Below the pieces are notes generated by a model. The model did not search any database, was not told the DNA's origin, and saw only the letters and a program-made list of their open reading frames with translations. Positions 22,649-38,912 of a DNA stretch of 64,000 nt are shown here, piece by piece. Source of the DNA: Cellulosimicrobium sp. ES-005 (GTDB taxonomy: Bacteria > Actinomycetota > Actinomycetes > Actinomycetales > Cellulomonadaceae); the NCBI RefSeq assembly GCF_040448685.1, contig NZ_CP159290.1, forward strand, positions 3,720,001 to 3,784,000, read 5' to 3'. The translations under genes were made by a program, and so were the position numbers. Within the stretch, counting starts at the first letter, position 1, and each line of letters starts with the position of its first letter.

Positions 22649-22689
22649 GTGGGCCCCGTGGGGTTCGAACCCACAACCTACGGATTAAA
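22649..22689. other. attL: displaced 3' end of tRNA-Lys
   Basis: 41 bp matching 38839-38879 except T for C at 22664. It contains the T arm, variable loop and part of the anticodon arm of tRNA-Lys in the same orientation as the intact gene, but stops before the anticodon; the rest of the tRNA is missing. It is therefore the original chromosomal 3' end, separated by the insertion. Confidence 0.88.
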
Positions 22690-22773
22690 GGGTAGCAAGC
22701 GCCTGTCCTGCGATGTCCGGTTCCACGCAACGTAACACCGCGGGTGAATATCGGGGTGTCTCATCGAGGGTGC

Positions 22774-22803
22774 TTGACAGTGAGCACGTAAGAGGGGGAT
22801 AAC
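22774..22803 (+). promoter_or_regulatory. sigma70-like promoter just inside attL
   Basis: TTGACA (22774-22779) and GATAAC (22798-22803) are separated by 18 bp. The -35 is a perfect consensus, unusual in this GC-rich genome. It would drive the small gene at 22854. Confidence 0.6.
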
Positions 22804-22853
22804 AGGGGGACAGGCAAACGGCACCCGCCCAGCCACCTACGCAGGGAGCAGTC

Positions 22854-23096
22854 ATGGACCTCTCGCCCTCCTCATCAGCCCTCCGCACCAACCCCGCCGG
22901 CAACCTCGGGGTGCTCGTGTTCGGCACAGCCCCGATCGTGGAGCACTACGAGGACGGGTCACCCGTCCTGCCCATTCCGGTGGGCGCGACGCCCGACGAC
23001 CTCGCCCTCGCACAGGCCGACGGCTGGAACCTCCTCGGCATCGTCGCCGCGGGCTCGCCTGCCGGCCTGGTCGACATGTACGTCCTGAGCCGCTGA
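22854..23096 (+). CDS. hypothetical protein, first gene of the element
   Basis: An 80-residue soluble protein, MDLSPSSSALRTNPAGNLGV at the front and a compact body (VPIPVG-like turn, DDLALAQADGWNLLGIVAAG). It has an ATG start with GGGAGC ten bases upstream, and the TTGACA promoter at 22774 points to strong expression. No family is recognised. The gap after it (23097-23367) holds a GC-rich hairpin (23194-23213) and a 14-codon GTG ORF at 23148 rich in His, Pro and Ser behind a GGAAGGGG sequence. Whether that ORF is translated is unknown. Confidence 0.55.
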   Translation: MDLSPSSSALRTNPAGNLGVLVFGTAPIVEHYEDGSPVLPIPVGATPDDLALAQADGWNLLGIVAAGSPAGLVDMYVLSR

Positions 23097-23193
23097 CGCA
23101 GCTCACCAAGACCGCCTAGTCCACCGACACCAGGAAGGGGAACGGCCGTGGACCACACGCACCAGCACCCGTCATCATCACCACCACGCTGAC

Positions 23194-23213
23194 GCGGGCC
23201 ACACGCGGCCCGC
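23194..23213 (+). terminator. hairpin after first element gene
   Basis: GCGGGCC and GGCCCGC form a 7-bp stem around ACACGC, about 100 bp after the stop at 23096. Weak candidate terminator. Confidence 0.35.
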
Positions 23214-23367
23214 CCGCCCGTGCTGGCAGGCTCCCTAGCAACCGCCGGCACAACGTCACCCCGCACCCACGGTCACCACCGCAGGGGCGGGGTGACTTCC
23301 GTTCGGCCCGGGTGAAGTGATGTCCCAGGTGGTGACGCTTGCAGAGCAGCCGCCCTACGGTCAGAGC

Positions 23368-23814
23368 ATGCGGTTCAGGGTCCGCGCGTCACTTGCGCTC
23401 GTCGTTCTAGTCACTGCTGCCTGCGGGGCCGGTGACGACGGCACGCGACAGGCGGAAGACGCCTGCGCCCTAGCTGCGGCCGACTTGGCCATGGCGGACG
23501 ATCCGGAGGACATCACCCCGGCCCAAGTTGCTGAAGACAAGAGCAACGCCGACCGGGCGCGGGCGCTGGCTGCTAGTGCCGCGAAGCGCAATCCAGGCTT
23601 CAGGGAGCTCTCCCTCGCCGCAAGCGAGGCCGCCAGGTGGTACGAAGACTTGCAGGATCGGCTCGCCGTGAACCTTGCTCCCATGGAGTTTGGGCAGGCC
23701 CCGAGGTACCTACCTCTCGCAGATCGGCAGCCGGACACGCTCGAAGGGTTCGACCTCGATGCTCGGAGCCTGGAAGGGCTCGACGCGGAATGTCAGATCG
23801 TCACTGCTGAGTAG
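23368..23814 (+). CDS. predicted lipoprotein
   Basis: A 148-residue exported lipoprotein. The signal sequence MRFRVRASLALVVLVTAAC ends in a lipobox (VTAAC, Cys at residue 19). The mature part is charged and mainly helical (KSNADRARALAASAAKRNPG, then AASEAARWYEDLQDRLAVNL), with a single further Cys near the end. A TACGGT element ends six bases before the ATG, indicating a leaderless message. The role on the cell surface is unknown; surface lipoproteins of mobile elements sometimes act in exclusion, but nothing here shows that. Confidence 0.7.
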   Translation: MRFRVRASLALVVLVTAACGAGDDGTRQAEDACALAAADLAMADDPEDITPAQVAEDKSNADRARALAASAAKRNPGFRELSLAASEAARWYEDLQDRLAVNLAPMEFGQAPRYLPLADRQPDTLEGFDLDARSLEGLDAECQIVTAE

Positions 23815-23833
23815 CCGGCCCCAAGACAGCGAA

Positions 23834-23866
23834 CGAAGCCCCACACCGCATTGGTGTGGGGCTTCG
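23834..23866. terminator. strong bidirectional terminator hairpin
   Basis: CGAAGCCCCACACC pairs perfectly with GGTGTGGGGCTTCG (14-bp stem, loop GCATT), between the convergent lipoprotein and small membrane-protein genes. Confidence 0.85.
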
Positions 23867-23877
23867 TGTGTGCGCCT

Positions 23878-24195
23878 CTAGTGCGCGTGCTGGCGGCGGT
23901 CCTCCCACCGGTCCAGGGGTGCGCCCAAGGCGCGCACCAGAAGGGCGTACGGGATGCCTGCGACGGGCCACAACAGGCAGGCGAGCAGCGCGGACCACGC
24001 AAGCGCTCCGGCGAACTGGCCGACGTTCTCCAGGCCAACCATCTCGGAAGAGAGCTGCCACACCAGGACCGTGACGAACCCTGCGAGGCCGCCCCACCAC
24101 CACGCGCGCCGGCTACGGCGCCGGTCCGCGGCAACATCGGCCCGGATACGCGCCACCGCCGCTTCGTCCAGATCACTGTGCTCAACCGCATCCAT
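23878..24195 (-). CDS. small membrane protein of the element
   Basis: A 105-residue protein from ATG 24195. A charged N-terminus (DLDEAAVARIRADVAADRRR) precedes two hydrophobic helices (AWWWGGLAGFVTVLVWQL and ALAWSALLACLLWPVAGIPY) and ends with a His-containing basic tail. No homologue is recognised. The 181-bp region 24196-24376 upstream is free of genes and contains the boundary to the lower-GC nuclease gene. Confidence 0.55.
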   Translation of the reverse strand: MDAVEHSDLDEAAVARIRADVAADRRRSRRAWWWGGLAGFVTVLVWQLSSEMVGLENVGQFAGALAWSALLACLLWPVAGIPYALLVRALGAPLDRWEDRRQHAH

Positions 24196-24376
24196 GCCCA
24201 CCACCGTCCCACCGACCACCCACGGCGGGAAGGGTGAAACCGTGCCGTCCACACCGAACACTCGGCGAGGGGTGGGGGCCTCTTTTCCCATCTCGGGTTG
24301 ACCGGCCCCTTGTTAAATCCGCGACTCCACTAAGGGGTGGTACTGTCGCCGCGGCAATTTGCTTGCAGCTAGCCGG

Positions 24377-26104
24377 TTATGATTCAACCGTTGAGAACGC
24401 CCGGTGCTCCTCGATGCCGTAGAGGGACCATGGTGTCGGTGCCCAGGATTCGGGAGGCGCGCCCTCCGGACCGAGTTGGGCGGCGCGCCACCCAGCGTCG
24501 CCGCCCGCAACAAAGGTGATCGTGCGACCGTCGAAATCGTCGTTCTGGATCGCATCGAGTAGCTCAGACCCGTCCTTCACGGTGACAGACGGGGAACAGA
24601 CCCCAACAGGACCGAGGCGGACAGTAAGGCCGGCGATTTCCAGCGCGAAATCAGGCCGCCTTGAGTAAATCGCGTGGGGCCGATCCACAAGCTCGCGAAG
24701 CTCTGAAACTGCCGCCGGATCCGTTGAGTCGCCATCGACCTTTGTGTTGAAGTTCATTTGGGCAGGAAGGAAAACGCACTGCCCGTCGAGGATTCTGCAA
24801 GCCGCGCGCGCGAGCACGCGGTCCATCGGTGTTATCTCCAGGGGAATGATCCTCCTGGTGCCGATGTGATCGAGCAGTTGTTGAAAGTCCCGCGTAAACT
24901 CGCGCAGTATTTCGAGGTCGCTGTCTCGCAGTGCTTTGGTCGGCGCGACATCACCGACAGCGACCAGATTCCCATCCACGCTGATGTCAATTCGGTGGGC
25001 GCGGGTCAACAGGTCATGGTTCAGTGCAAGCGAGTCCCGGGCGTCGCGGACATCGAGCCGATGCACCGAGACGTCGATGTCACAACTACCTGCCGCGCCC
25101 TGCTTGCTCGGTAGCATCCAGTTCATCGTTAGCCCTTGGTAGTAGAGCGCCTTGACCGTGGCCCCTTCGGTGCCCTTGCCCGCGCCCAATACCTGCCCCT
25201 GGTGCGATCCCAGTGACGCTCCTTCCGAGTCAAAGAGCTCTATCTCAAGCGGCCGATCGAACGATCCTTGCGCGACGGGTTCGAAGAGCAAGTCGCCGGA
25301 TCGCGGACCCCACTGGAACGATGGACCGGTTGACTTCTGAGAAACGATCGACTCGCGTGGAATCAACACAGATTCCAACGACCCAAACCTTACGAAGCGG
25401 TCGAACGTCGCCTTGATTTCTGGTGTGAACCGCCCGGCGTCAAACACGACTTCCAATCCTAGTGGCGACTTTTCTGCGGCCTTTGGATGCTTCGCGCGTG
25501 GCATAATCCAAGTTTCTTCGCCGGTGGCGAATATGTCTACGGCCCAATCTGGGTCGAGATTGCTTGCGCGATGTGCAAGCGCTTGGGCGCGCTCGACAAC
25601 CTCTTCGGAGTTTCGCGCCTCAGCTACCTCAATATTGCGGCCCTCAATTTGATCGAGAATATCTTCACGATCCAGATAAGCCACGATGTCAGGGTACTTG
25701 GATAGAAGGAGTTCGAGCTTGGGAAGATCAAGTATTTGGATTCGGGGCGCACTTAAGCCGTCGGGTGCTTCAAGCTTCTCTACCCAGTCGCGCTCGGGAG
25801 GTGTGAGCTGTGACGGGACCACAAGAACCCAGTACCGCGGCTGGTGAGTCGTGACCGCCTTTTCGAATGAGTCTTTAGTCCAGTGCTTCCGACTCTTTGT
25901 GCTCGACTTGAATCCGTCGAGGTAGTGCTTGAACTGATATACGATCTTGTGACGTGGCATCTTAGCGAGAAAGTCCACACCGCCGTCGCCCCCTCGTCCG
26001 TCCGGTGCGAACGTCACCTTGGCCTTCTCGTGCTTCCGTTCCAGCAGAAGGCACAGAGTTCGCTCGAAGGTGGGACGGTCTGTCTTCGCCCAGTCGAATG
26101 CCAT
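24377..26104 (-). CDS. Mrr-like PD-(D/E)xK nuclease protein of unknown system
   Basis: 575 residues from ATG 26104. The first ~60 carry a restriction-endonuclease-like core: FERTLCLLLERKHEKAKVTF (catalytic Glu helix), then GGDGGVDFLAKM and IVYQFKHY, giving the D...QxK arrangement of Mrr-type enzymes. The remaining ~450 residues match nothing I know and hold mixed beta-rich and helical parts. The gene uses more A/T-ending codons than its neighbours, a sign of transfer. No methyltransferase is nearby. It is preceded by three 13-bp tandem GACCCCC-type repeats. A DNA-targeting defence role is an inference from the nuclease core and mobile context. Confidence 0.6.
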   Translation of the reverse strand: MAFDWAKTDRPTFERTLCLLLERKHEKAKVTFAPDGRGGDGGVDFLAKMPRHKIVYQFKHYLDGFKSSTKSRKHWTKDSFEKAVTTHQPRYWVLVVPSQLTPPERDWVEKLEAPDGLSAPRIQILDLPKLELLLSKYPDIVAYLDREDILDQIEGRNIEVAEARNSEEVVERAQALAHRASNLDPDWAVDIFATGEETWIMPRAKHPKAAEKSPLGLEVVFDAGRFTPEIKATFDRFVRFGSLESVLIPRESIVSQKSTGPSFQWGPRSGDLLFEPVAQGSFDRPLEIELFDSEGASLGSHQGQVLGAGKGTEGATVKALYYQGLTMNWMLPSKQGAAGSCDIDVSVHRLDVRDARDSLALNHDLLTRAHRIDISVDGNLVAVGDVAPTKALRDSDLEILREFTRDFQQLLDHIGTRRIIPLEITPMDRVLARAACRILDGQCVFLPAQMNFNTKVDGDSTDPAAVSELRELVDRPHAIYSRRPDFALEIAGLTVRLGPVGVCSPSVTVKDGSELLDAIQNDDFDGRTITFVAGGDAGWRAAQLGPEGAPPESWAPTPWSLYGIEEHRAFSTVES

Positions 26105-26143
26105 GGCGACGAGGATAGCCACTGGCAGGGTTACATCAGCACA

Positions 26144-26182
26144 GACCCCCTAACTTCACCCCCTACAACGACCCCCTACACC
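26144..26182. repeat. three 13-bp iteron-like direct repeats
   Basis: GACCCCCTAACTT (26144), CACCCCCTACAAC (26157) and GACCCCCTACACC (26170) follow each other at exact 13-bp steps, 40 bp upstream of the nuclease start and immediately after the SNF2 helicase stop. They share the GACCCCC word with the palindromes at 27894 and 33869. Operator or replication-iteron function is possible. Confidence 0.65.
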
Positions 26183-26191
26183 CCTACATGC

Positions 26192-27652
26192 TCAACCCCA
26201 CACGCCCATCACCTCGTGCATGAGGATGCGGTCCTGCTCCTCAGCCCACCAATCCCGCCCGCACCGCTCCTCCCGAGGCGCACCAGCCAGCACCTGCGAC
26301 GCCACCGCCTCACGCCCAGCCACCACCCCAGCCTTCCGCCGAGCATCCGGCACGTCCGGCAGAACCGTGTGATGCAGCACCCACGCAAACGACGAACCCA
26401 ACCTCCGGATACGCCCCTCCCGCTGCACCTCACGCGCAGGATTCCAAGAAGAATCCAACGACACCAAGACCCCACACGTCTGAAGATTCAGCCCACGCTC
26501 CAACACCGACGACCCCACCAAAACCCGCGGCCCCACCGGATCACGAAACGCAGCCACCGCGCTTGCACGCCCCGCGCGATCCACGCCACCATCCACTCGA
26601 ACAAACGACACACCCACCGAACGCAGACGTTCACACACCACATTCAACACATCCTGAAATTCCGAATACACAATCACCTTCGGAGTCTGGTGATAGTCAG
26701 CAGTCGTAACGAGACGTATGAACTCATTCGCTGTCGCGGAGCTGCCTGCGACGTACCGGGCGGCCTTGGCTCGCTTCTGGTGGCCGTGGAGTCCGGGCAT
26801 GGTGGCGTACCGGTCGTGCTGCTTCTGCTGGGGTGGGGTGAGCGGCACGAATGTGGTCTTGCGAACCAGGGTCGGGAGCGAAAGGCCGATGTCCTCGGCG
26901 GTGCGGCGGAGCGTCACGCCTCTGAGGTACTCGCGTAGGCGCGTCTCGGCGCCGGGGAGGAATCCGACGGCGCGGGGTGGCATGGGATCACCGAGGATGT
27001 TCGTCCCGGTGGGTGCCCATTCGACGAACTCGCGGTCGAACGTCTCCTGATCCCAGAGGTTGGGTGTGCCGACGGCGGCGAGGGCGGCCCATGTCTCGGG
27101 GGGCACGGTCTCGACGGGGGTGGCTGTGAGGCCGATGCACCGGTGGGCGCGGGCTGACAGGGTGCGGACGGCTTCCCAGTTCGTCTTGCCACCCTTCACA
27201 GCCATGATTTCGTCCAGCACCAGGATGTGGGGTCGCCAGTGCGACACGAGAGCGGTGTCGAGGCGGGTGCGGAGCGTGTCGTAGGAGATGACGACGACGT
27301 GCAGGTTGGCGGCGAGGGCCGCCCACTCCTGGGTGGCCTTCTTGGATGGGTTGGTGGACCACGCGCGGTGGGTGGATGCGTCGATGGTGAGGTTGGGCAG
27401 GAGGCGCCGCAGCTCGTCGAGAGTCTGGTTGATGAGCGAGGCGTCGGTGACCCAAACGACGGCCGGGCCGTCGGGTCGGCCCGGTGCCGAGAACGTGCCG
27501 TGGTGGGAGGCGCGCTCGATGACGAGCGCAGCCTGGATGGTCTTTCCTAGGCCGACCTCGTCGGCCAGGATCGCGCGGGGGTGGGTGTCGAGGAAGTCGG
27601 CACCCGCGACCTGGTGCGGGTGGGGGACGACGCCGAACGTCTGGTTGGTCAT
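26192..27652 (-). CDS. SNF2-family DNA helicase/translocase
   Basis: Superfamily-2 ATPase of the SNF2 type, 486 residues from ATG 27652. The Q-like start is PHPHQVAGADFL. Motif I is ADEVGLGKTIQAALV, motif II LDEIMAVK (DEIM instead of DEAH), motif III GLTATPVE, and motif VI QREGRIRRLG near residue 425. It is compact and has no attached nuclease, chromodomain or zinc domain. Similar stand-alone SNF2 helicases occur in actinophages and plasmids. In this element it probably works in replication or DNA processing with the winged-helix protein, or with the nearby nuclease; neither is shown by the sequence. Confidence 0.85.
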   Translation of the reverse strand: MTNQTFGVVPHPHQVAGADFLDTHPRAILADEVGLGKTIQAALVIERASHHGTFSAPGRPDGPAVVWVTDASLINQTLDELRRLLPNLTIDASTHRAWSTNPSKKATQEWAALAANLHVVVISYDTLRTRLDTALVSHWRPHILVLDEIMAVKGGKTNWEAVRTLSARAHRCIGLTATPVETVPPETWAALAAVGTPNLWDQETFDREFVEWAPTGTNILGDPMPPRAVGFLPGAETRLREYLRGVTLRRTAEDIGLSLPTLVRKTTFVPLTPPQQKQHDRYATMPGLHGHQKRAKAARYVAGSSATANEFIRLVTTADYHQTPKVIVYSEFQDVLNVVCERLRSVGVSFVRVDGGVDRAGRASAVAAFRDPVGPRVLVGSSVLERGLNLQTCGVLVSLDSSWNPAREVQREGRIRRLGSSFAWVLHHTVLPDVPDARRKAGVVAGREAVASQVLAGAPREERCGRDWWAEEQDRILMHEVMGVWG

Positions 27653-28027: not shown

Positions 28028-28396
28028 CTAGGGGGTGGTGAGGACGTACACGAGCTTGCGCCGATCGAGTGCCTGGAGCTCCGACACCTCGGGGTAGTCG
28101 CGGGGGTTCACGGCCACGAGGAACCCCCAGTCGCGGAGTTTGCGGATGGAGGCCTCGGCGGACTTGCCCCGCCCGCCGGCGGAGAGCCCCATCCGGTCGT
28201 CGATGGTCTTGTTCCCCGCCCAGATCGGACGCCCCGGGTTGGACGAGTCGGCGTATGTGACGAGCACGGCGGCGGTCCCGAGCAGCGTGGGCGACTTGTT
28301 TGGCACGCGGTGGTCGCGGAGCTTCGTGAGCCAGACGAGCGGCTGGACCGCCCGCCGGTCGGCCTCGGTGCGGGACGTCTTCTTCGGGGCGGTCAA
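28028..28396 (-). CDS. winged-helix (HTH_36-like) DNA-binding protein
   Basis: A 122-residue basic protein. The TTG start at 28396 overlaps the TGA of the giant gene by four bases (TTGA), so it is translationally coupled. The segment TLLGTAAVLVTYADSSNPGR then IDDRMGLSAGGRGKSAEASI and RKLRDWGFLVAVNP is a winged helix of the kind found at the front of plasmid and phage replication initiators. It could be a short replication or control protein. The iteron-like motifs at 27894-28023 lie directly beyond its 3' end. Confidence 0.55.
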   Translation of the reverse strand: MTAPKKTSRTEADRRAVQPLVWLTKLRDHRVPNKSPTLLGTAAVLVTYADSSNPGRPIWAGNKTIDDRMGLSAGGRGKSAEASIRKLRDWGFLVAVNPRDYPEVSELQALDRRKLVYVLTTP

Positions 28397-31300
28397 CCGA
28401 TCACCACCTCTGCCGACAGGTCGTCTGCGGCGATCGTGCGGTTCACCATCTGCTCGAACCCCACGTCCTCAGCGGCGAGTGCCTGGACCCACTCGGCCCA
28501 GACCTCAGCGAGTCCGGAGTCCTCGGCCTTCTGAGAGTCCAGCGACGAGATACCGAGTTGTGCCATGGCATCGCGCATCATCTTGCGCGTTTCCAGGTAG
28601 AGGTCGAGTTGCTTCATGTCGGATCGGCCGGCCAGGGACTTGTTGTCCCGGATCGCGGTGCCCATGGTCGACAGGAACCGGACCGCGTTGTCGCCCGTGA
28701 AACCGGACTCGTACGCGTCAGCCCATGCGGGGTTCTCCCGCTTCAGGTCTGACAGGAACTGCGCCTTGACTTCTCGGACACTCTCCGCCCCCTTGGAGCG
28801 GATCGTCAGTCCGGCGTCCTCCAGTTGGAGGTTCATCTCCGTGGAGAACTTGTTCCACTCGGCCCAGCCCTTCGAGACCTGAACCTCGTTGTACGCGTCC
28901 CCCGGGTCCTTGATCGTGCGCCACGTCTTCGACGTGCCCACACCGATCTTCTGACGCTTCTGCTGCTGGTACGCCCCCTGGGAGAACTCACCCCCCAGGT
29001 TCGCCGCACCAGCGAACGCCCACCCGTACTCGGGTGTCTGCGCGACCAGGTCCCGGTACTTCTTCACCTCGTCCATCGCGGCATCCGACGCACGCACCCC
29101 CGTCTCGTTCAGAGACAGCGAGATGGTCATGTCGAAATAGTCCGGGTAGTCCTCACGGAAACGATCCTCCGCGTCAGACCCGTACTCCTCGATGTACCGG
29201 TTCCACTCCTGCCGGTACCACTCCAACCGGCCCTGAGGGCTGGTGGAGAACGGTGCCTGCGAGCCGAACGCCTTCATGATGTAGAAGTTCCGGGTTCGGC
29301 GGGCGACGAGGGACATGGTGTCGGCCTTCGCCTTGGGCTCGCTCTCGCCCGTGGTCTGGGCCTGCATCTCCTCGGCCAGGAGCTGCGCGTAGGTCTGCGC
29401 GAACCGGTCTTCGCTCATGGACTGGTCGATGGCGGTGCGCGCGTTGCGCACCCACTGGGGTAGCGCCTGCTCGGCTGGGCTGTCGGCCGTGGGGCCGTAG
29501 GGGAGGAGCCACTTCCCGATGGGGTGATCGGCCCACTCGCTGGGCAACGCCTGCACCAGCGCCTCGTTTGCCGGGATCGACAGCAGCGGACCGGGTCCCG
29601 GGAGCCAGAACGGTTCACCCTGGAAGATGACGTTCATCGACCCCTTGGACACGCGCACGTTGTCGTCGACACCGGCCCAGTCAGCGAGAGCCCTCGGGAT
29701 CGGGATGTGGATGTACCCCTTCGTCGGGTCGGCCTCGTGGCCGATCACCTCACCCAGGGACCCATCCTCGTTGACGCGCACCACGTCGCCGTTCGGCAGG
29801 ATGCGGTTACCGTCCTCGTCCGTCACCTCGAACATCTTGTTCGGAGCCTGGTACGCCTTCAGCATCAGAGGCGCAGCCTCCCAATGCTCACCGAAGATGC
29901 GAGCCCACTTCGACATCGTGTCTTCCCACGCCGAATAGAACGGCATCAGGAACCGCATGTGGTAACCCAGGTTCGACTGCCTCGACGTGTCGAACATGAC
30001 CTTCGCCACGTCACGACGAGCCAAGATGTCCGCACGGTTGCGGAGCTGGTGCACCTCGGCGCGGGTGAGGGTGGCGGACTCTCGGCCGGTCTGGGAGATG
30101 AGGTGTTCGAGGCGTCGGGAGAAGGCGTCACGATAGAAGGGGTGGCGGCCCATGACGGTCTCGGGGATCTCGGCGGCGTACTTGAAGTAGGTGCTGCGTG
30201 CCTTGTTGTAGCCGTTGACGAGGGGGTTGCCCTGGTCGATGGCTTCCTTCAGGTTGTGGGGCACGACGGGTCGCGGCGTCCCTTCGGGAAAGGCGACGTC
30301 GATGTCGTCAGCGCGGAGGTTGCCGGCAATGGCGCGGTTGCGAATCTCCTCGGTGGGGAGGAGCGCGTCCACGTGCTCACGCTGGGCGTTGAGCAGGTCG
30401 AGTTCGCTGAGCCACTTGGTCTCGCCCTGCTGGTTCGTGGCGAACGCGGCCCAGTACTCGCGTCCTTCTGGGGTCTCGCGCATCCATGCGAGGAGCGTCT
30501 GGTCGTCGGCTCCGCCGGCCAGCGACTTCAGGACGTGGTCGTTGCGCACGTGCCGGTTCACCGCATCCAGGTAGGCGTCAGCCCACGCGGGGTTCTTGGC
30601 GTCGACGAGCGCGTAGCGACCGGAGCTTCGGAGGCTACGGAGCGCGAGGGTCCGGCGCGTGTCCATCAGCCCGAGGATCGACGCACGAGCGTCGGTGAGG
30701 TCGTGCACCCGGGTGTAGGCCTCCTGGCCGCCCATGTACGGGTCGGTGATGGACGGGGCGGTGAACTCCCCGGTCTTGACGTCGAGGCCCGCCGTCGAAC
30801 CCTGGAAGGCCTTCAGGTCCGTCTTCCCGCGGCGAACCGAGCCCTCGATGTCGGGGCGCTCCACCTTGAAGTCGTCCAGCGTCTTGTCCACGATCGCCTG
30901 CTGGCGTGCCCGCTCCGCGGTCGCGGCCTTCAGGCGCTTGCCCGACAGCGCCGGGATCGTCTCGTCCAGTTCCTCCAGGCGGGCGTGCGCCAGCATCTTC
31001 TGCTGGAACAGCTCGACGGCAGCCTTATCGACGCGCTCCAGATTGCGGAGGCTGTTCCCGAGCCCGCGCATGGCGGTCAGGCCGTGACGCATCACGCCGA
31101 TGTGCGCGAGCGCACGAGCCTGCGTGTCGACCTGGACGCGGACGGGGTAGCCGAGGGGACGCAGTAGCGCGACGAACTTCCAGAGGTCATTGAAGGAGGC
31201 AAGGCCCGCCTCCGCCCACTGGTATGCGCCGGTCGCGGTCTTGCGGATCATGCCGGGCGTGAGCCTGGTCCCGAGTGCGTTGTCGACCGCCTTCCAGTCC

Positions 31301-33228
31301 ACGACGGATACGACGTCCTGGAACTGGGACGTCGCGACGGACCGCGCGAGTTCGTCGGTTAGGGCGTAGATGCCATCGTCGGAGGCGATGGTGGTTGCGC
31401 GCTCCGCGTCCAGCGCCTGCTTGGCGCTGAGACCAAGTCGCGCCATCTCCTCGTTGCGTCGTCCGACGATGTCGCGCACGGCCCAACGGATTTCGGGTGC
31501 GCTCACACCGTTCCGGCCGCCATGACGCACGACCATGTAGTCCTCCGCGAACTTGTTGAAGTCGCGCACCACCTCGTGCCGCTGCGTACGGGCCAGGCCC
31601 GGGTCGACCGCGGACCGAGCCGAGACAAACCGGTCACGGAACTCCGCCAGCGCACCCAGCGCGGCGTCGTTCTTGTCCTTGCGGAGCATGCGCTCCACAC
31701 GACCCGTCGCCGCCTCGAACCCCTCGTAGGCATCATCTGACGAGAGCTTCAGCGTCTGCGGGATGTGACGCCCCGCGACCAGGTGCACCGGGTGCAGGGC
31801 CGGCGAACCCGCCAACGTCTTCACAACAGACGCCGCGTTGCGGTCCGCGCGGAACGACGCCACCATGCCGGGCGTCTCGCGCACCGTCGCAGCCTGCCCG
31901 CGCTTCACCGTCGCAGAGACCGCGTCCACACCCAGGCCACCAGTGCCCGAGTCGATCACACGCTGAATCGCACCCAGCTCGTCACGAATCTGCTGCTGCT
32001 GGAGGTCCACCTGGCGCTGCACGAGGGTGTCCTTGTCCAGCAGGGCGAGGGAGTCCTTGTGCGAGATGGCGGGGTTGCCCAGAATCTCGGCCGCCGCTGT
32101 GTCGGCGTTGGGGCCCACCATGCGCTCCAACTCCAGGGACAGCATGTCGGACCGGTCGCGCAGCGTCGACAGGGCCTTCCGGTCTCCGGCGCCCGCGTAG
32201 ATCACCTGATCCATCAGGTTCTTCGCGTCCGCCTCGTCCGCGCCGACCTCGCGGGCGCGGCGCATCATGAACGCCACCGCCCCCGCATCCGTGGTCTGCG
32301 AAATCAGCGGGTCCTTCGCCACGGCGGCGAGGCCGCCGGGCTGGTTCAGGACGTCGTAGTACCGGTCCGTGGTCCGCTCCACAGCGGACTGGAAGCGGTT
32401 CGCCTTGAACGACCCGGCCTCGACCGTCTCCGTTGCGGCACGGTTCAGGCGGGAAGCGTTCGCGGCAGCCGCCACGTCCACGGCGTCGATCGATCGGGCA
32501 GCCGTGGCGATCTTGGAACCGCCCGCGGTCGCCAGGACCAGCGGGTCGGCGTAGATGTTGAACGCGGCGTCCGCGATCCCCGTAACCCACTTCTGGCCCC
32601 CGCCACCGAAATACTCGGCACGCGCACCGACCAACGCAGGGTCGTCCAGCAGCGGCAGGGCCGTGCGGCCAGTGCGGGGGTCGAACGAACCAGCGTTCTC
32701 ACCCTCAGGCTGGAACGCAGCACGACCCTGCTCCCACACGGCCTGCGCCACCGACGACTCGTTCTGCAACTCCTGCGACCAGTAGTTCTCGCGGAACTCC
32801 GGGTCCGTGAACGCGAACCCCGGCAGCACCGCACCCAACGACTGCAACGCGTTGACCGGGCCGCCCTGCGTCATCTGGTCGTTCTGGTAGCGGAAGGCCG
32901 CGCCGTAGTAGTCGCCCGTCCAGCGCACCGGGGCACCCATGGCCTCCAGAAGCCAGTTCCCCGCACCATCCGAGCGGAGCTCAGGGTTCGCCGCGACCTT
33001 CGCCTGCTCCCGCTGGAACGACGCCTGGGCGCCAGCGCCCTCGAACGACTGCCGCAGCGTCGGCTGCCGGACACCGAAGAACGACGAACCCTGCGCCAGC
33101 CCTCCGGCTGTCCGCGCCTGGTCCTGGTCTCGGGTGACCTTGGCGATTCCGATGGACGCACCGAGGGGTGCGCCGGCCTCGAAGGCGGCGCCGATTCGGG
33201 TCATGAGGTCGTGCTTTTTGGCAGGCAA
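28393..33228 (-). CDS. giant phage-like protein (about 1,611 residues)
   Basis: The largest gene of the window. A TTG at 33228 with GGAGG seven bases upstream is the best start (ATG 33204 is possible). The protein is soluble, helix-rich and Ala/Asp/Arg/Gln-rich, with no signal peptide. A semi-hydrophobic part (KWVTGIADAAFNIYADPLVL) lies near residue 215, heptad-like helices fill 250-1050, MRFLMPFYSAWEDTMSKWA is near 1090 and FWLPGPGPLLSIPANEALVQ near 1206. Overall size and the MPFYSAW-type region recall internal virion/ejection or polyvalent proteins of phages; this is my impression, not a match. No peptidase, transglycosylase or polymerase motif was found. It lies downstream of xis-like and Cys4 genes and is coupled to the winged-helix gene. 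Confidence 0.7.
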   Translation of the reverse strand: MPAKKHDLMTRIGAAFEAGAPLGASIGIAKVTRDQDQARTAGGLAQGSSFFGVRQPTLRQSFEGAGAQASFQREQAKVAANPELRSDGAGNWLLEAMGAPVRWTGDYYGAAFRYQNDQMTQGGPVNALQSLGAVLPGFAFTDPEFRENYWSQELQNESSVAQAVWEQGRAAFQPEGENAGSFDPRTGRTALPLLDDPALVGARAEYFGGGGQKWVTGIADAAFNIYADPLVLATAGGSKIATAARSIDAVDVAAAANASRLNRAATETVEAGSFKANRFQSAVERTTDRYYDVLNQPGGLAAVAKDPLISQTTDAGAVAFMMRRAREVGADEADAKNLMDQVIYAGAGDRKALSTLRDRSDMLSLELERMVGPNADTAAAEILGNPAISHKDSLALLDKDTLVQRQVDLQQQQIRDELGAIQRVIDSGTGGLGVDAVSATVKRGQAATVRETPGMVASFRADRNAASVVKTLAGSPALHPVHLVAGRHIPQTLKLSSDDAYEGFEAATGRVERMLRKDKNDAALGALAEFRDRFVSARSAVDPGLARTQRHEVVRDFNKFAEDYMVVRHGGRNGVSAPEIRWAVRDIVGRRNEEMARLGLSAKQALDAERATTIASDDGIYALTDELARSVATSQFQDVVSVVDWKAVDNALGTRLTPGMIRKTATGAYQWAEAGLASFNDLWKFVALLRPLGYPVRVQVDTQARALAHIGVMRHGLTAMRGLGNSLRNLERVDKAAVELFQQKMLAHARLEELDETIPALSGKRLKAATAERARQQAIVDKTLDDFKVERPDIEGSVRRGKTDLKAFQGSTAGLDVKTGEFTAPSITDPYMGGQEAYTRVHDLTDARASILGLMDTRRTLALRSLRSSGRYALVDAKNPAWADAYLDAVNRHVRNDHVLKSLAGGADDQTLLAWMRETPEGREYWAAFATNQQGETKWLSELDLLNAQREHVDALLPTEEIRNRAIAGNLRADDIDVAFPEGTPRPVVPHNLKEAIDQGNPLVNGYNKARSTYFKYAAEIPETVMGRHPFYRDAFSRRLEHLISQTGRESATLTRAEVHQLRNRADILARRDVAKVMFDTSRQSNLGYHMRFLMPFYSAWEDTMSKWARIFGEHWEAAPLMLKAYQAPNKMFEVTDEDGNRILPNGDVVRVNEDGSLGEVIGHEADPTKGYIHIPIPRALADWAGVDDNVRVSKGSMNVIFQGEPFWLPGPGPLLSIPANEALVQALPSEWADHPIGKWLLPYGPTADSPAEQALPQWVRNARTAIDQSMSEDRFAQTYAQLLAEEMQAQTTGESEPKAKADTMSLVARRTRNFYIMKAFGSQAPFSTSPQGRLEWYRQEWNRYIEEYGSDAEDRFREDYPDYFDMTISLSLNETGVRASDAAMDEVKKYRDLVAQTPEYGWAFAGAANLGGEFSQGAYQQQKRQKIGVGTSKTWRTIKDPGDAYNEVQVSKGWAEWNKFSTEMNLQLEDAGLTIRSKGAESVREVKAQFLSDLKRENPAWADAYESGFTGDNAVRFLSTMGTAIRDNKSLAGRSDMKQLDLYLETRKMMRDAMAQLGISSLDSQKAEDSGLAEVWAEWVQALAAEDVGFEQMVNRTIAADDLSAEVVIG

Positions 33229-33368: not shown

Positions 33369-33614
33369 TCAGCGCTGTGCGTTTGAGAGCGAGCGCCAGC
33401 CGTTGGCGCGCTCGCGAGGGAATCTGTCGACCTTGGGTCGGCAGGTGGGGCAGGGCTCGTGCTGGAGTGAGGTGTAGCCGAGCTGGTGGCCGTAGGCGGC
33501 CTGGCTGGCGCAACGGTTGCAGAGGCCGTTGGCGAGGTAGAGGTTCTTGATCCGCTCCCAGTTCCGAGCCTGGGAGGGGGTCTCGTGCTGCTTCTGGCGG
33601 GCCGTCTCCGTCAT
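33369..33614 (-). CDS. small Cys4 zinc-binding protein
   Basis: An 81-residue basic protein with two CxxC knuckles: LCNRCASQAAYGHQLG and CPTCRPKVDRF. The ATG overlaps the TGA of the xis-like gene (ATGA), so the two are translated together. The spacing of the cysteine pairs (about 23 residues) resembles small phage zinc proteins that bind nucleic acid. The giant gene follows after 140 bp containing a GCGGGC/GCCCGC hairpin. The exact role is unknown. Confidence 0.6.
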   Translation of the reverse strand: MTETARQKQHETPSQARNWERIKNLYLANGLCNRCASQAAYGHQLGYTSLQHEPCPTCRPKVDRFPRERANGWRSLSNAQR

Positions 33615-33838
33615 ACGGTCCCGCTCGTGTTCACGGCGTGCTTGTCCTCGTACGCCTCGACGTCGGACACGCGGTAGCGGACGTTGAAGCCGATCTTGCG
33701 GTAGACGGGTCCGCGCCTCTGCGAGCGGAGTGTGGCGAGCCAGCCCGGGTTGACTTGCCACCGGGCCGCTAGTTCCTTTTCGGTCAGCAAGTTGGAGGAG
33801 ATGGGAGCGGCGTTACTGCTTGTGGATGACTTCGCCAT
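33611..33838 (-). CDS. excisionase-like HTH_17 (MerR-type) protein
   Basis: A 75-residue DNA-binding protein from ATG 33838. The pattern LLTEKELAARWQVNPGWLAT followed by LRSQRRGPVYRKIGFNVRYR and VSDVEAYE is the classic single MerR-like helix-turn-helix plus wing of excisionases and element regulators. It is first in the minus-strand module, 31 bp downstream of a GACCCCC-N6-GGGGGTC palindrome. In this context it is a candidate recombination directionality factor or the repressor of the module. The integrase gene is 3 kb away on the other strand, rather than adjacent. Confidence 0.7.
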   Translation of the reverse strand: MAKSSTSSNAAPISSNLLTEKELAARWQVNPGWLATLRSQRRGPVYRKIGFNVRYRVSDVEAYEDKHAVNTSGTV

Positions 33839-33868
33839 ACCACACATCTAAGCCGGTCCCTATGACAC

Positions 33869-33888
33869 GACCCCCTTTCCTGGGGGTC
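33869..33888. promoter_or_regulatory. palindromic GACCCCC-N6-GGGGGTC box upstream of xis-like gene
   Basis: GACCCCC (33869-33875), TTTCCT, GGGGGTC (33882-33888). Arm sequence and 6-bp spacer are the same as in the box at 27894-27913. It lies at the divergent start of the minus-strand module. It could be an operator; TTTGGG after it is too short for a convincing U-tract terminator. Confidence 0.55.
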
Positions 33889-34064
33889 TTTGGGAGCTGC
33901 GACGCGAGGCCTCAAATACAGCGTTGCGGAGCGACCTGCGACGACTCTCGAGAATCAAGCGTTTGTGAAGATTTTGGATGACCATGGGGGCCGGGCCGAA
34001 AGGGTGTGTTTTCACCCGCTTTGGACCTGGTGTGCGTTACCAGGTGCGGCGTACCGTCACCTAC

Positions 34065-34391
34065 ATGAAGGTCCTCATATCAGCAGCGGTCGGAGGGGTT
34101 GCGGCCGTGGCGCTCTGGACTTCGGGCCACCCCGTATGGGCTGTGATCGCCTTCCTCGTCATCGGGGGTGGGGCGTGGACCTTGGTGCCATGGCACTTGC
34201 TGAACCCTCGCCGGCGTCGTGACGCCGCCGAGTTCCGTGCCGCTGCCATGGATGCTGGCATCTGGTCGACGCTGACGGCGACAGATGCGCAGGAGCTGTT
34301 TTCGGGCTGGTTGCAGGTGCGTCGCCAGCACCACGGCATGCCCGCACGCACCTACTTGGCAGTGCTGTTCCCACCCACGCCACCCCAGTAG
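34065..34391 (+). CDS. small membrane protein of the element
   Basis: A 108-residue protein from ATG 34065. A TACCGT element seven bases upstream suggests a leaderless message. Two hydrophobic helices (VLISAAVGGVAAVALWTSG and WAVIAFLVIGGGAWTLVPW) are followed by a basic stretch (LLNPRRRRDAAEFRAAAMD) and a cytoplasmic tail. No family is recognised. The tail and helix pair resemble other short actinobacterial element proteins only in general form. Confidence 0.5.
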   Translation: MKVLISAAVGGVAAVALWTSGHPVWAVIAFLVIGGGAWTLVPWHLLNPRRRRDAAEFRAAAMDAGIWSTLTATDAQELFSGWLQVRRQHHGMPARTYLAVLFPPTPPQ

Positions 34392-34402
34392 TCTCCTCGC
34401 TC

Positions 34403-34974
34403 ATGGGGGATGCAGCGCTGCCGCAGCTAGTACCTGGCGTGCGAGTTGGGACGACCGCCGACGTCGGTGCGCTGATGCGCCTGTCAGGCCACGCACTGTG
34501 GAAGCTCGTGCGCTCGCCCGGGCTCCCTAAACGTCACGTTCGTAATGATCGGGTTGGCGATCGGGCAGGGTCACGGGAAGCGACTGCGAGAGGCACTGGT
34601 GGGTCCGCTGCTGGCCCAGGCGGACGCGACCGGGACGCGGGTCACGTTCGATGCAGTGGCCGCGACGGCGAACCAGTACGACGTGGTTCTTCTCGGGTTC
34701 GTTGCCGGCGGCAGGTCGTGGCAGGGACGCCGCTACACACGCGAGCCGGTGGCGCAGCGTGTTTGAGTCGTACTGGATGCACTACAACCGGTGGGACCGG
34801 CACGGGTCCGCTGAGAAGCGCGACGGCTCCGAGCATCAGCGCGCCAAGACGCATTGCCCGCACGGCCACGAGTACACGGAAGAGAACACGATCGGTTTTC
34901 CGTCGGACGCGCGACGTCGGTGCCGCGCGTGTCGAAACACGAAGCGATCAACGCCGGGAGCCAATGAGGTATAG
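34403..34974 (+). pseudogene. decayed HTH and HNH-endonuclease locus
   Basis: Three overlapping open frames, none complete. From ATG 34403 (after TAGTCT) an HTH_17-like segment TTADVGALMRLSGHALWKLV is followed by RSPGLPKRHVRND and then loses protein character near 34550. A second frame (34545-34766) encodes MIGLAIGQGHGKRLREALVG and onward. A third (34777-34974) ends in KTHCPHGHEYTEENTIGFPS then RRRCRACRN, the zinc-binding tail typical of actinophage HNH homing-type endonucleases, but without the HNH core. I read this as remains of one or two genes broken by frameshifts; short intact genes cannot be excluded. Confidence 0.4.
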
Positions 34975-34976
34975 AG

Positions 34977-36038
34977 ATGGAAGATGAATCAAACCGCGCC
35001 GGCGATGCCCGCGACCGAACGGATGGCGCTGGAGAAGGCGAGAAGCGGCGGAAGTTGCGAGTTCGGCGGGGAGATGGCGAGTGGAAGGAGATTGAACCGG
35101 CGCCTCCAATCGATATCGACGACCCCGAGATTGCTGCCATTGGCCTCTTGAAGCAAGAGGATGTTGCGGCGATCATCGAGAACAAAGATGACCCGCGACA
35201 CGCGGCGGCGCTAGAATATGAAAGGCTGCGTGGCCTTCGCAACAAGAGATGGGCCGCTCGAATCGGTGAGGCCTTAGGTGCTTCCCCTTCCGCCGCCGCG
35301 AAGTCGGTGTTGGATAGCTTGGGGGAGGCTGCCCGCGGCAGCGTTGACCTCGCGGCCTTAGCCTATCCGACCCCGCCAATGGCGCCTATTACGGGCGCTG
35401 GCGAGGGCTCCCGATTGCTTGACCTCGAGCCCGTGCACAATCCGACCTATGACGTGCTTGTGGAGCAGCAAAAGGCAAACGGCTTGGCCTCGGACGCGAA
35501 CGAGATTCTTAGCGGAATGGCCGACCTTGCGCGGGACGAAGCCAATGCCGCCAGAAAAGATGCAAGCGATGCCGCTCGCAAGACAAGGCACGCATTGGTC
35601 GCGGCTTGGGTGGCGGTTGGAGTCACCGTGGTAGTGGGTGCGGTCCAAGTGGCCGTGGCACTAAATCCCCCGCAGATGTCCGCCACTGACCCCAGTCTCG
35701 CGAATGAGGCGACCCCTTCGCCAGAAAGTGTCCAACCGGAGACTCCGTTGCCCGAGCCGTCTGCGCCATACTCGGACCCTGCGACCTGGACCGACGCCGA
35801 GAAGCGTGCAGTTCAAGAGTTGCGGTCCGGATTGCCCGGTGTCGATCCTCACTTTTCGGATGAGCAGGCCGCCGAGTTCCTCCGCTTCGGGCACCTTGCT
35901 TGCGACTCGCTCACCGCAGGCGAGGGATGGCGCGACATCGCGACCCAATTCCCTTCTCTGCCGCAGCAAGAGGTTCTACCTGTCATCGGCGAGATGTGGG
36001 CAGAACTATGCCCCGAGGTGCCTTTCGATCCGCGCTGA
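34977..36038 (+). CDS. membrane-anchored protein with DUF732-like C-terminal domain
   Basis: 353 residues. The first ~205 are charged and cytoplasmic, with a helical segment (DVAAIIENKDDPRHAAALEY and following) and a coiled region (ANEILSGMADLARDEANAAR). One transmembrane helix (ALVAAWVAVGVTVVVGAVQV) lies near 208-230. A Pro/Ser/Glu-rich linker leads to an external ~75-residue domain with FLRFGHLACDSLTAGEGW, a pattern close to DUF732 (two Cys, small helical). It follows the decayed locus directly. The function is unknown; the topology suits sensing or surface interaction. Confidence 0.6.
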   Translation: MEDESNRAGDARDRTDGAGEGEKRRKLRVRRGDGEWKEIEPAPPIDIDDPEIAAIGLLKQEDVAAIIENKDDPRHAAALEYERLRGLRNKRWAARIGEALGASPSAAAKSVLDSLGEAARGSVDLAALAYPTPPMAPITGAGEGSRLLDLEPVHNPTYDVLVEQQKANGLASDANEILSGMADLARDEANAARKDASDAARKTRHALVAAWVAVGVTVVVGAVQVAVALNPPQMSATDPSLANEATPSPESVQPETPLPEPSAPYSDPATWTDAEKRAVQELRSGLPGVDPHFSDEQAAEFLRFGHLACDSLTAGEGWRDIATQFPSLPQQEVLPVIGEMWAELCPEVPFDPR

Positions 36039-36065
36039 GTCAGTGGTGGAGCAATTGGTTACCGC

Positions 36066-36836
36066 CTAGTTGACGGGTGGGAGTCCGAGCGTTGCGCTAG
36101 TCAGCCTCTCGGGTTCGGGGTCGAATGGCTCGTACTTCAACTCGCTGGAACGAACCATGTCAACGAACACATCTTTGATTCCACGAGCGCGAAGGTATAG
36201 GCGTGCGCCGATGGACGTTGGTTCGGCCCAACTCATGGGTTCCGGTCGGTCGGGTGTGACGCGGCCGGTACCCCACTGCCCGATTAGGCCTGCGCGCCAG
36301 AGGGCGTCCAGAGCTTCCACGACCGCCTGGCCCGTTACGCCCGAGGCCTTTTCTAGCTCGCTGGTCTCTGTTATAACGCAAAGCTCTTTGGCTTCATTAA
36401 ACGCGATGGAAATAGGATTCTGGTCGCCTGTCGCTGTTCCTTCGAGGCTTGCGTATATCAGGAAGTGCAGTCGAGTCTGGGCGGCCGTCATGCGGGAAGC
36501 GATCCCGGCGTAATACGTCCCACTGTCGTCCGCACCGCCTGGCGAACGCGACGTGAGCAAAAGGCCTGCAAGGTATTCCTGCTGTACGTCGTCATTGATC
36601 CACGAGCCCGCGTCAAGAACTTCGTGTGCGACCCGCGGATGGACCGCCTCCCCATCGGGCATCGGCTCGGACCTTCGCGATACTCGTTGCAGGATTCGCG
36701 CGAAGTTCTCCGCGCGCCACGCGGAGTAGACGGCCGCGAGGTCCTTGGCGAACTGGTCGATGGTGGGACCGAGCACTTTTCGTCCAGTAGCGAGTGCTGC
36801 TCCGGTGAGCGCGACGGTCGAGACGGGGTCAACCAC
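36066..36836 (-). CDS. Abi-alpha/DUF4393-like protein
   Basis: A 256-residue cytoplasmic protein from GTG 36836. A glycine-rich front (DPVSTVALTGAALATGRKVL) is followed by QFAKDLAAVYSAWRAENFAR, then a region (LDAGSWINDDVQQEYLAGLL) and a C-terminal winged-helix-like part (GVTGQAVVEALDALWRAGLI). The order and the 'R-x-x-N-x-x-x-I' helix resemble DUF4393, which includes the Abi-alpha abortive-infection protein. The resemblance is seen by eye only. It is convergent with the DUF732-like gene and divergent from the integrase, a usual cargo position for defence genes. Confidence 0.5.
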   Translation of the reverse strand: MVDPVSTVALTGAALATGRKVLGPTIDQFAKDLAAVYSAWRAENFARILQRVSRRSEPMPDGEAVHPRVAHEVLDAGSWINDDVQQEYLAGLLLTSRSPGGADDSGTYYAGIASRMTAAQTRLHFLIYASLEGTATGDQNPISIAFNEAKELCVITETSELEKASGVTGQAVVEALDALWRAGLIGQWGTGRVTPDRPEPMSWAEPTSIGARLYLRARGIKDVFVDMVRSSELKYEPFDPEPERLTSATLGLPPVN

Positions 36837-37011
36837 GGGGCGTCACTCTCCTGCGTCTCTGGTTGCACGACGAACGTGCTGGTCACGGGGCTAGTGTCGT
36901 CTATCCGACCGGGCGCGTCCAGGGCGAAGCTCTTCAGTGCCCGGTGCCCCGCCGCCTATGCCCTTGAACTGGACCTTTTTTCATCCCCCGCATACTGCTA
37001 CGGTGGATCGT

Positions 37012-38265
37012 ATGGCGCGTCCGCGGATGAAGCTCGGGGAGTGGGGCAACGTCGCTACTACGCCCCAGCTCCTGGCCGATGACGGCAAGTACCGTGCAGC
37101 CCCCGCGGGGACGCGGAAGGCGGATCGTTGGCGTGCACGCGCCAAGGTGCGCGACACAGACGGCATCGTCCGCGACGTCGAGCGCTACGGCGGGACGAAG
37201 GTTGAGGCCCGCCGCCTGCTCGAAGAGGCCCTACGCGAGCGAGTCACCCCGGTGACTAAGGGCACGATCACCCCGGCTACGACGTTCTCGGACCTGGCGG
37301 CAGCGTGGGAGGAGGAGCTTCAGGGCGACGAGTCACGCTCGCCCAATACGAAGGCCGTGTACTCCTCGATCCTGCACCGGTACGTCACCGGCAGCCCCGC
37401 CGACCCGAAGTCGCGGGGCCCCCTCGCCGGCTGGACCGTGCGCGAGCTGAACGTGGCCGCGATCAACCGGGCGCTCCAGGACATCAACAAGGAGGGTGGG
37501 CCGGCGGTCGCCAAGACCGCCCGCACCGTCCTGTCCGGCATCCTAGGCCTCGCCGTTCGCAACGGCGCCATCCCCGCCAACCCCGTGCGCGAGGTCGACC
37601 GCATCAAGCAAAAGGGCGCCCCGAAGCGGAAGGGCGCGACCCGCGACACCACACGGGCGTTCACGGTGGAGGAGCGTGCTGCGGTCCTGACGTTCATGGA
37701 CACCGACGAGCACGCCCTCGCGCACGACCTGGGTGACCTGATGGCGTTCCTGGCGGGCACAGGTGCGCGTCTGGGCGAAGCGTGTGCTCTCAGGTGGTCG
37801 CGGGTCTCCCTCGACGCTCGGAAGGCCACGGCGCGCATCGACGCCACCCTTGTCCGCGTCCCGGGGGAAGGGGTCTCGATCCAGGAGGGCACGAAGACGA
37901 AGCGTCATGTGTCCGACTCCAGCCGCCGCGTGGTGCAGTTGCCCGAGTGGCTGGCGGACCGGCTGCGCGTCCGTCGCGACACGATGAAGCACACCGAACC
38001 GGACGACGTGGTGTTCCCGTCCCCGGGCGGGAAGCTCCGCGACCCGTCGAACACGACGAAGACGATCCGGCGCATGCTGGACCGGGCGGGGTTCGAGTGG
38101 GCGACGTCGCACACGTTCCGTCGAACGGCGGCGACGCTCATGGATCAGCGCGGCCTGACAGCGCGGGAGATTGCGGGCCAGCTCGGGCATGCATCGCCGT
38201 CGATCACGACCGACGTGTACATGGACCGCCGTCCCGCGACGACACGTGCGGCCGAGGTTCTGTAG
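37012..38265 (+). CDS. int: tyrosine recombinase (integrase)
   Basis: Site-specific integrase of 417 residues. The ATG at 37012 follows a TACGGT element by seven bases (leaderless). An N-terminal AP2-like arm-binding segment (RWRARAKVRDTDGIVRDVER) and SAM-like core-binding domain (NTKAVYSSILHRYV) precede the catalytic domain. The catalytic residues are all visible: R in GTGARLGEACALRW (near 250), HTFRRTAATL (H and R near 365), GHASPSITTDVYM with H and the nucleophilic Tyr. It lies beside attR/tRNA-Lys, as in most tRNA-integrated elements, and should catalyse insertion at the 3' end of tRNA-Lys. Confidence 0.92.
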   Translation: MARPRMKLGEWGNVATTPQLLADDGKYRAAPAGTRKADRWRARAKVRDTDGIVRDVERYGGTKVEARRLLEEALRERVTPVTKGTITPATTFSDLAAAWEEELQGDESRSPNTKAVYSSILHRYVTGSPADPKSRGPLAGWTVRELNVAAINRALQDINKEGGPAVAKTARTVLSGILGLAVRNGAIPANPVREVDRIKQKGAPKRKGATRDTTRAFTVEERAAVLTFMDTDEHALAHDLGDLMAFLAGTGARLGEACALRWSRVSLDARKATARIDATLVRVPGEGVSIQEGTKTKRHVSDSSRRVVQLPEWLADRLRVRRDTMKHTEPDDVVFPSPGGKLRDPSNTTKTIRRMLDRAGFEWATSHTFRRTAATLMDQRGLTAREIAGQLGHASPSITTDVYMDRRPATTRAAEVL

Positions 38266-38314
38266 CCGCAAGCCCAATCCTTGCCGAGAGCGGTCGTCCG
38301 GATACAGTCACGCC

Positions 38315-38761
38315 ATGGCGATAGAGGTCGATGTCAGCACGTCCTTGACCGACGTCGTAGCTGCGATCGGGACCGTCGGCGCTCTGTTGATCGCAGCGCT
38401 CGCGTACGGGGCCGAGGTTCGCCGACGACGCCGCGAGAGCAAATGGGGCCAGGCCGAGCGCGTATCGGCATGGATTGGGGACGCGACCGTGAGCACTAGC
38501 TCAACTGATGCTGGGTTGTTCCTGCGAAACGACTCCGGAGCCATGGTCTATGGGGTGAGAGTTCATCTCCACGACGGGGCGCTGGGCACCATCGACGGGG
38601 CCATCGCCCCTGAGACCACGCAGGAGTATTACCTTGAGTACGACCGGCCGGTCCTCAGGGTCATACCCGTGGACATCGAGTTCCAGGACGCAGCCGGTCG
38701 ATCCTGGAAGCGTCACCGAGACGGCCGGTTGGTGCTCGTGAAGAGCGTTCAGGGCGAGTAA
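38315..38761 (+). CDS. single-helix membrane protein next to integrase
   Basis: A 148-residue protein from ATG 38315; a TACAGT element ends six bases upstream. One N-terminal transmembrane helix (VVAAIGTVGALLIAALAYGA) is followed by a basic stretch (EVRRRRRESKW) and a beta-rich C-terminal domain (DAGLFLRNDSGAMVYGVRVH and on). This layout is common among small proteins of actinobacterial mobile elements. No function is known. It is the last gene before the attachment site. Confidence 0.55.
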   Translation: MAIEVDVSTSLTDVVAAIGTVGALLIAALAYGAEVRRRRRESKWGQAERVSAWIGDATVSTSSTDAGLFLRNDSGAMVYGVRVHLHDGALGTIDGAIAPETTQEYYLEYDRPVLRVIPVDIEFQDAAGRSWKRHRDGRLVLVKSVQGE

Positions 38762-38836
38762 CCGGGGGATTTTCGGGGGACGAGAGCCTCGCTGCGTACT
38801 GATGGGCGGCAGCAACTGTTGTGAATCCGCCATCTT

Positions 38837-38912
38837 TGGTGGGCCCCGTGGGGCTCGAACCCACAACCTACGGATTAAAAGTCCGCAGCTCTGCCAATTG
38901 AGCTAGAGGCCC
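38837..38912 (-). tRNA. tRNA-Lys (anticodon UUU)
   Basis: The minus strand folds into a full cloverleaf: acceptor GGGCCTC/GGGGCCC (one G-U pair), D arm GCTC-AATTGGCA-GAGC, anticodon arm GCGGA-CTTTTAA-TCCGT with anticodon TTT, variable AGGTT, T arm GTGGG-TTCGAGC-CCCAC, discriminator A. The 3' CCA is encoded (38837-38839). The 3' half is provided by the integrated element; the displaced original 3' end at 22649 continues with CT instead of CCA, so the original gene probably did not encode CCA. Confidence 0.95.
38839..38879. other. attR within tRNA-Lys
   Basis: 41 bp identical to 22649-22689 except one base in the T loop (C at 38854 against T at 22664). It spans the tRNA acceptor 3' strand through the anticodon stem. 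Crossover somewhere in this core keeps the tRNA functional. Confidence 0.88.

Follow-up and report, generated by a model that had tools for sequence, protein, structure and literature searches.

Here, we report a 16.19-kb element in a tRNA-Lys gene of Cellulosimicrobium sp. ES-005 that is very probably (we put this at about 0.82) an integrative satellite whose helpers are podophages akin to the Streptomyces Beephvirinae, with packaging by a helper terminase and an ejection-type giant protein of its own. It lies in the 64,000-nucleotide stretch of DNA analyzed here (the window), and it belongs with eight further elements of one plan, which are best read as a new family of integrative podophage satellites.

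The element is bounded by direct repeats (22649 to 22689 and 38839 to 38879) identical at 40/41 positions and spaced 16,190 bp apart. In a same-species genome (G289, locus L108), both flanks were found at 98 to 99% identity, joined over one 41-bp copy, and the element is therefore a real insertion; the 16.2-kb tRNA-Lys element with 41-bp att repeats proposed in an earlier, sequence-only reading of this DNA was thus confirmed. G+C content, taken in 1-kb steps, was 57 to 70% inside the element and 69 to 76% outside. The same element occupies the same tRNA gene in Cellulosimicrobium cellulans MP1 (L009; judged by coordinates to be genome G312 of the same genus). At the L009 locus, a second integrase gene adjoins the element at the same att (2837 to 3979 and 4143 to 4183), and an intact tRNA was not found, probably reflecting a tandem insertion at the tRNA-Lys site. 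The features of the window element are as follows.

22649..22689, attL, 41-bp direct repeat, single copy at the G289 empty site
23320..23814, plus strand, lipoprotein-like gene (by eye), kept in L009
23878..24291, minus strand, small membrane protein (by eye), kept in L009
24298..24347, plus strand, candidate packaging-end site TTGACC-N7-TGTTAAA-N23-TACTGTC, intergenic
24377..26104, minus strand, cargo 1, Mrr-like nuclease (PF04471, E value 8.5e-4, 19.9 bits against a cutoff of 21)
26192..27652, minus strand, SNF2-type helicase, start set as in L009 (PF00176, 1.5e-20; phrog_62, 1.2e-57)
28028..28396, minus strand, 122-aa protein that looks winged-helix-like by eye and may serve in replication or regulation
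28393..33228, minus strand, giant of 1,611 aa without cysteine, homologue of Beephvirinae gp9/gp10, proposed ejection or internal virion protein (phrog_10618, 5.8e-70)
33369..33620, minus strand, small Cys4 protein (Cys4 by eye), no family
33611..33847, minus strand, Xis-like HTH_17 protein (HTH_17, 3.9e-5, 24.3 bits against a cutoff of 27; phrog_66, 4.4e-6)
34384..34935, plus strand, shorter, partial version of an L009 membrane-protein gene, with an internal stretch missing from the window copy
34977..36038, plus strand, cargo 2, membrane protein (by eye), no family
36066..36836, minus strand, cargo 2, 256-aa protein, no family
37012..38265, plus strand, tyrosine integrase (PF00589, 2.7e-18)
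38837..38912, minus strand, tRNA-Lys (ttt), integration target
38839..38879, attR, 41-bp direct repeat, within tRNA-Lys

The earlier description of the integrase, Xis-like, giant, SNF2, and nuclease genes holds, with "winged-helix" and "Cys4" being by-eye readings; the 122-aa protein had no match in Pfam, PHROG, or NCBIfam. Six backbone genes compared between the window and L009 were 71 to 97% identical (integrase, 97%; dN/dS, 0.05), and two cargo spots differed, with a RelA/SpoT-type gene in L009 at the spot of the Mrr-like nuclease and other genes opposite the membrane genes. PICI and P4-like satellites carry a primase-type replication gene and TerS or capsid-size genes such as Sid or Cpm, and AICEs carry a TraB/FtsK-type translocase. 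The scanned window proteins matched neither a TraB/FtsK nor a relaxase family, and Pfam and PHROGs gave no primase family, no terminase or capsid gene, and no TerS, Sid, or Cpm match, although small divergent proteins of the last kind could escape detection.

The element had been described as lacking virion genes, which is not entirely correct, because its giant is homologous to a gene of the podophage virion block. The giant, for which Pfam gave nothing above cutoff (the best family was PSCyt2, with an E value of 0.04), matched 29 phage records, all Streptomyces phages, at 23 to 26% tblastn identity over 35 to 57% of the query. In WRightOn, Immanuel3, and Fabian, the homologue (1,635 to 1,648 aa) comes after terL, endolysin, portal, and small genes and is followed by peptidase/glycosylase or minor tail genes, with the major capsid gene further downstream in the two phages whose stretch reached that far. 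Multiple alignment of the window giant with phage gp9/gp10 was full-length and colinear end to end (24 to 25% identity). Abafar, a member of these Beephvirinae-type phages, is described as a podovirus by electron microscopy (PMC11536984).

Viral contigs scanned with the giant as a single-protein query yielded no relative; the giant alignment as query yielded 53 loci, including copies of Immanuel3, Manuel, FlowerPower, and JXY1. The nearest phage giant (81% identity over 898 codons) is on contig L034, which carries terL and portal and starts inside terL, so that the terL-upstream end of the closest helper is missing from it; a scan with the L034 giant returned only L034 itself. No match was obtained in a plasmid search with the giant and no PDB relative by profile search. 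Purifying selection acts on the giant (dN/dS of 0.17 against both L009 and L034).

Trimmed to the first Met, 49 of 55 satellite and phage giants (a few partial) had no cysteine, and the other 6 had one at position 8 to 9; a broader collection (52 giant ORFs and fragments) held 9 cysteines in 68,897 residues. Among the other phage proteins (loci L034 to L086), gp8, gp11, and gp14 had none and gp13 had one, with frequencies per 1,000 residues of 1.8 for gp12, 2.3 for the major capsid protein (MCP), 5.2 for portal, and 8.0 for terL. Such a group of cysteine-free proteins, encoded between portal and capsid, would be consistent with ejection or with exposure outside the cell, and the near-absence of cysteine in gp8, gp10, gp11, gp13, and gp14 may mark ejected or outer virion proteins. 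From gene position and cysteine scarcity, we propose an ejection role for the giant.

Giant-bearing genomes, with the genome of the window counted each time, numbered 2 of 198 in the order, 3 of 150 in the family, and 8 of 394 in the class; a genus search around G449 (12 genomes) gave 4, none beyond those already found. Gene neighbors identified phages or prophages in G265, G350, and G439 and elements in the window, L009, G164, G421, G566, G494, G510, and G449, with a ninth element in G694 (via contig L117). Giant and integrase thus recur together, not as scattered genes of ordinary prophages. The nine elements span at least five actinobacterial families, measure 15.9 to 20.4 kb, and share a plan of integrase plus giant with varying replication and defense cargo, including Mrr-like, RelA/SpoT-type, HNH, and weakly SIR2-like (below cutoff) genes; AAA_25 ATPases were confirmed in four relatives. 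Bounding repeats of 36 to 51 bp were found at G164, G421, and G494, and G566 has a 40/40-bp copy of its own tRNA-Lys end; the ends of the G510 and G449 elements are less certain.

HMMs derived from phage proteins (built from 3 to 54 sequences; the G439 phage matched all but belonged to the training set) detected the giant in 8/8 elements tested and gp11, the neighbor of the giant in the phages, in 3/8 (G421, G566, and G449). The other helper-type virion genes tested (terL, portal, MCP, and gp12 to gp14) were detected in 0/8. The outcome that the sequence-only reading had named as counting against it, recurrent relatives that all carry capsid and terminase genes deleted in the window element, thus did not occur. 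The gp9 HMM gave a weak match in the window (E value 0.01), probably by chance. Both G494 and G449 have a PKD-domain gene that corresponds to a portion of such a gene in the G439 phage. The expectation that SNF2 and the 122-aa gene would always accompany the giant failed, as SNF2 is present in only 5/9 elements (window, L009, G164, G421, and G566); absent from G494, G510, G449, and G694, it was rejected as a family hallmark.

The ninth element has an integrase, an Xis, a 146-aa gene, and a giant interrupted by an IS3-like insertion (by eye; L140, 8767 to 10068). A siphophage-like prophage (by eye; L141, G694 17393 to 31500), unmatched by the beephvirus HMMs, directly adjoins it. At G566, two successive copies of the tRNA-Lys 3' end (L098; 2270615 and 2272880; 40/40 and 38/40) and a transposase-like gene after gp11 were seen, and a second element or remnant may therefore sit there.

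A site shared with phage genome ends was found by BLAST comparison of three elements (G449, G494, and G510) with the phage in G439, which gave a 73- to 94-bp match ~600 nt upstream of the phage terL. In WRightOn, a 264-bp terminal repeat has its edge at the same place. Deposited Beephvirinae genomes end ~40 nt past the motif start in 6/6 records looked at, with end repeats of 253 to 276 bp in 4/4 measured (the left ends of Manuel and FlowerPower were read from IMG/VR copies). A core search (up to 4 mismatches, 66 sequences) found, beyond the four sources, single copies only in G164, G421, and the G350 phage, missing the window, L009, G265, and G566. Looser patterns matched the window at 24298, in intergenic DNA. 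Such loose mismatch-tolerant patterns also gave chance matches in coding DNA, and a second core pattern that had no match even in its own source was discarded as mis-spaced. The final pattern, TTGACCN{6,7}TGYTWAA, covers the sites found without the window but was fixed after the window site was known.

This pattern has one match in the 4.86-Mb genome of the window (G000), at 24298 inside the element. It occurs once per genome, inside the element, in 6/7 other element-bearing genomes (G312, G164, G421, G494, G510, and G449) and once each upstream of terL in 2/3 phage-bearing genomes (G439 and G350). It is absent from G289, G265, and G566, the last two carrying variants only, and the reversed-pattern control gave 0 matches in all 12 genomes. 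Altogether, 8/9 elements matched the site pattern, with G566 having a variant; the sites are mostly intergenic, with short low-scoring predicted ORFs overlapping those in L009 and G494.

A score matrix built with the tested site held out (19 other sites) gave the window site 27.2 bits, against 11.7 for the best match elsewhere in the 64 kb and 12.8 for the reversed control; the L009 site scored 26.4 bits against 9.5 for the best elsewhere. In a phage-only nhmmer search, sites were recovered in G421 (E value 8.6e-7), G566 (0.0059), G494 (0.13), G510 (0.27), G449 (1.2), and L009 (1.7), and those of the window and G164 were not listed at an E value of 10 or better; the window site is supported by the held-out two-box score and by its uniqueness in the genome.

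The two-box pattern matched 16 times in 2.9 million viral contigs. Twelve matches (9 distinct by site sequence) lie upstream of, and co-oriented with, terL of the Beephvirinae type; the one on L115 is identical in sequence to the site in the G439 phage, and L115 is probably this phage. One other match is the new element L117, and three appear unrelated. The site is therefore usable as a marker, the two-box pattern alone having led to a new element. Among 394 class genomes, 5 matched (G000, G439, G449, G494, and G510; reversed control, 1), all giant-bearing, and giant-bearing G350, G421, and G566 were missed; because all five had been used in pattern finding, this demonstrates specificity and not new members. 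Contigs with the site upstream of terL range from 41 to 69% G+C. Six of them (L120 to L123, L125, and L129) combine the site with Beephvirinae-type terL at 41 to 48% G+C, and hosts of lower G+C content are therefore probably within the range of the phage clade.

From these sequences we infer a route of excision, replication, packaging, and transfer that would depend on a helper. The element's own integrase and Xis would place it in tRNA-Lys. During helper phage growth it would excise and replicate with its own initiator and helicase genes, possibly the 122-aa protein and SNF2. The helper terminase would cut at the site common to satellite and helper genome end, and satellite DNA would thereby enter helper capsids; with elements of 16 to 20 kb and helper genomes of 44 to 46.5 kb, small heads or multimers would be expected. 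There, the satellite giant would replace or join the helper giant in the particle and aid ejection of satellite DNA into the next cell. The earlier suggestion of a possibly virion-delivered giant in a helper-dependent satellite is thus well supported at the sequence level by virion-block homology, the phage-end site, and tRNA recurrence; the alternative suggestion of a wholly new mobility type is unsupported, because helper packaging is a known route.

It is very unlikely that the element is instead a decayed prophage, an integrated podophage stripped of all virion genes except the giant. Giant and site are both phage-like, and the broken giant of G694 indicates that decay does occur; however, nine elements in several families have all retained the giant together with the site or a variant of it, giant evolution is constrained, and the window integrase, Xis, and SNF2 have no best match in the 53 phage loci (partial genomes). 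That the shared site is an origin, regulatory site, or operator, with the element spreading by another route, is very unlikely: the phage DNA close to the genome end includes a long region with no annotated gene, which could hold other signals, and the elements carry possible replication genes, but the ~40-nt distance to the deposited genome ends (6/6 records) and the lack of a TraB/FtsK or relaxase match in the scanned window proteins argue otherwise. The least likely of the three is a defense island whose giant acts as a decoy that spoils podophage particles, the island itself staying unpackaged. The defense cargo listed above would suit it, as would the position of satellite giants next to local phage giants in the tree, yet it leaves the site near the phage genome end, matched or present as a variant in 9/9 elements, with no role.

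In a published definition, satellites have no full virion gene set, carry a DNA signal or mechanism favoring packaging, and use helper-made particles (PMC11389934). The elements here agree with the first point, as terL, portal, or MCP was present in 0/8, and by sequence they carry a candidate signal that may favor packaging. The elements resemble the Beephvirinae (WRightOn, Immanuel3, and Abafar) in the giant gp9/gp10, in gp11 in some elements, and in the genome-end site; unlike these phages, they have an integrase and no terL, portal, capsid, or gp12 to gp14. Like P4-like satellites, PICIs, and PICMI, they are integrative and small and, by sequence, carry a putative helper packaging signal; defense cargo, also present here, is described for many of those satellites (PMC11389934). 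Those satellites are described as redirecting capsid size or packaging (PMC10690885), whereas the window element brings an ejection-type gene. The strategy would be the opposite of that reported for SaPIs, for which the 80alpha ejection protein gp44, essential for the phage, is dispensable in transduction (PMC7290940).

The Streptomyces phage satellites Mulch and Flayer (14.8 and 17.4 kb) share actinobacterial hosts, similar size, and a helper with end repeats but are described as encoding their own terminase, portal, and capsid (PMC10690885), helper-type versions of which the present elements lack. Capsid-forming PICIs likewise carry part of a virion gene set and borrow the rest; they are reported to make capsids and borrow tails (PMC10690885), whereas the elements here would borrow capsids and bring an ejection-type protein. 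A literature search on satellites with ejection or internal virion proteins and on actinobacterial satellites, mostly outside the subscription literature, found no such description; in the sources consulted, satellites redirect capsid assembly or packaging, and the staphylococcal ejection protein is unneeded by the satellite.

More tentatively, and at somewhat less than even odds, these elements could represent a satellite class that pirates the capsid but has its own DNA-ejection machine, with particles carrying the satellite giant (in some hosts, also gp11 and a PKD-domain tail-like protein), setting its own DNA entry, and repeatedly swapping the giant with local helpers. If so, the route of its DNA into the next cell would be determined by the satellite itself. 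With their single ejection-type gene, their single genome-end site, and the remainder dropped, such elements offer a way to test whether the DNA that a particle can deliver is decided by the entry apparatus.

In the giant tree (quick method, 9/55 rows removed beforehand, with a long-branch warning), satellite giants are interleaved with phage giants. A single origin of the satellite giants was rejected, as the tree requires 6 label changes, of which supported branches force 5 or more; shuffled labels needed 7.6 changes on average, with 30 of 500 shuffles needing as few as 6. The window and L009 giants group with phage contig L034 and then with prophage G265, and those of G494 and G449 group with the G439 phage.
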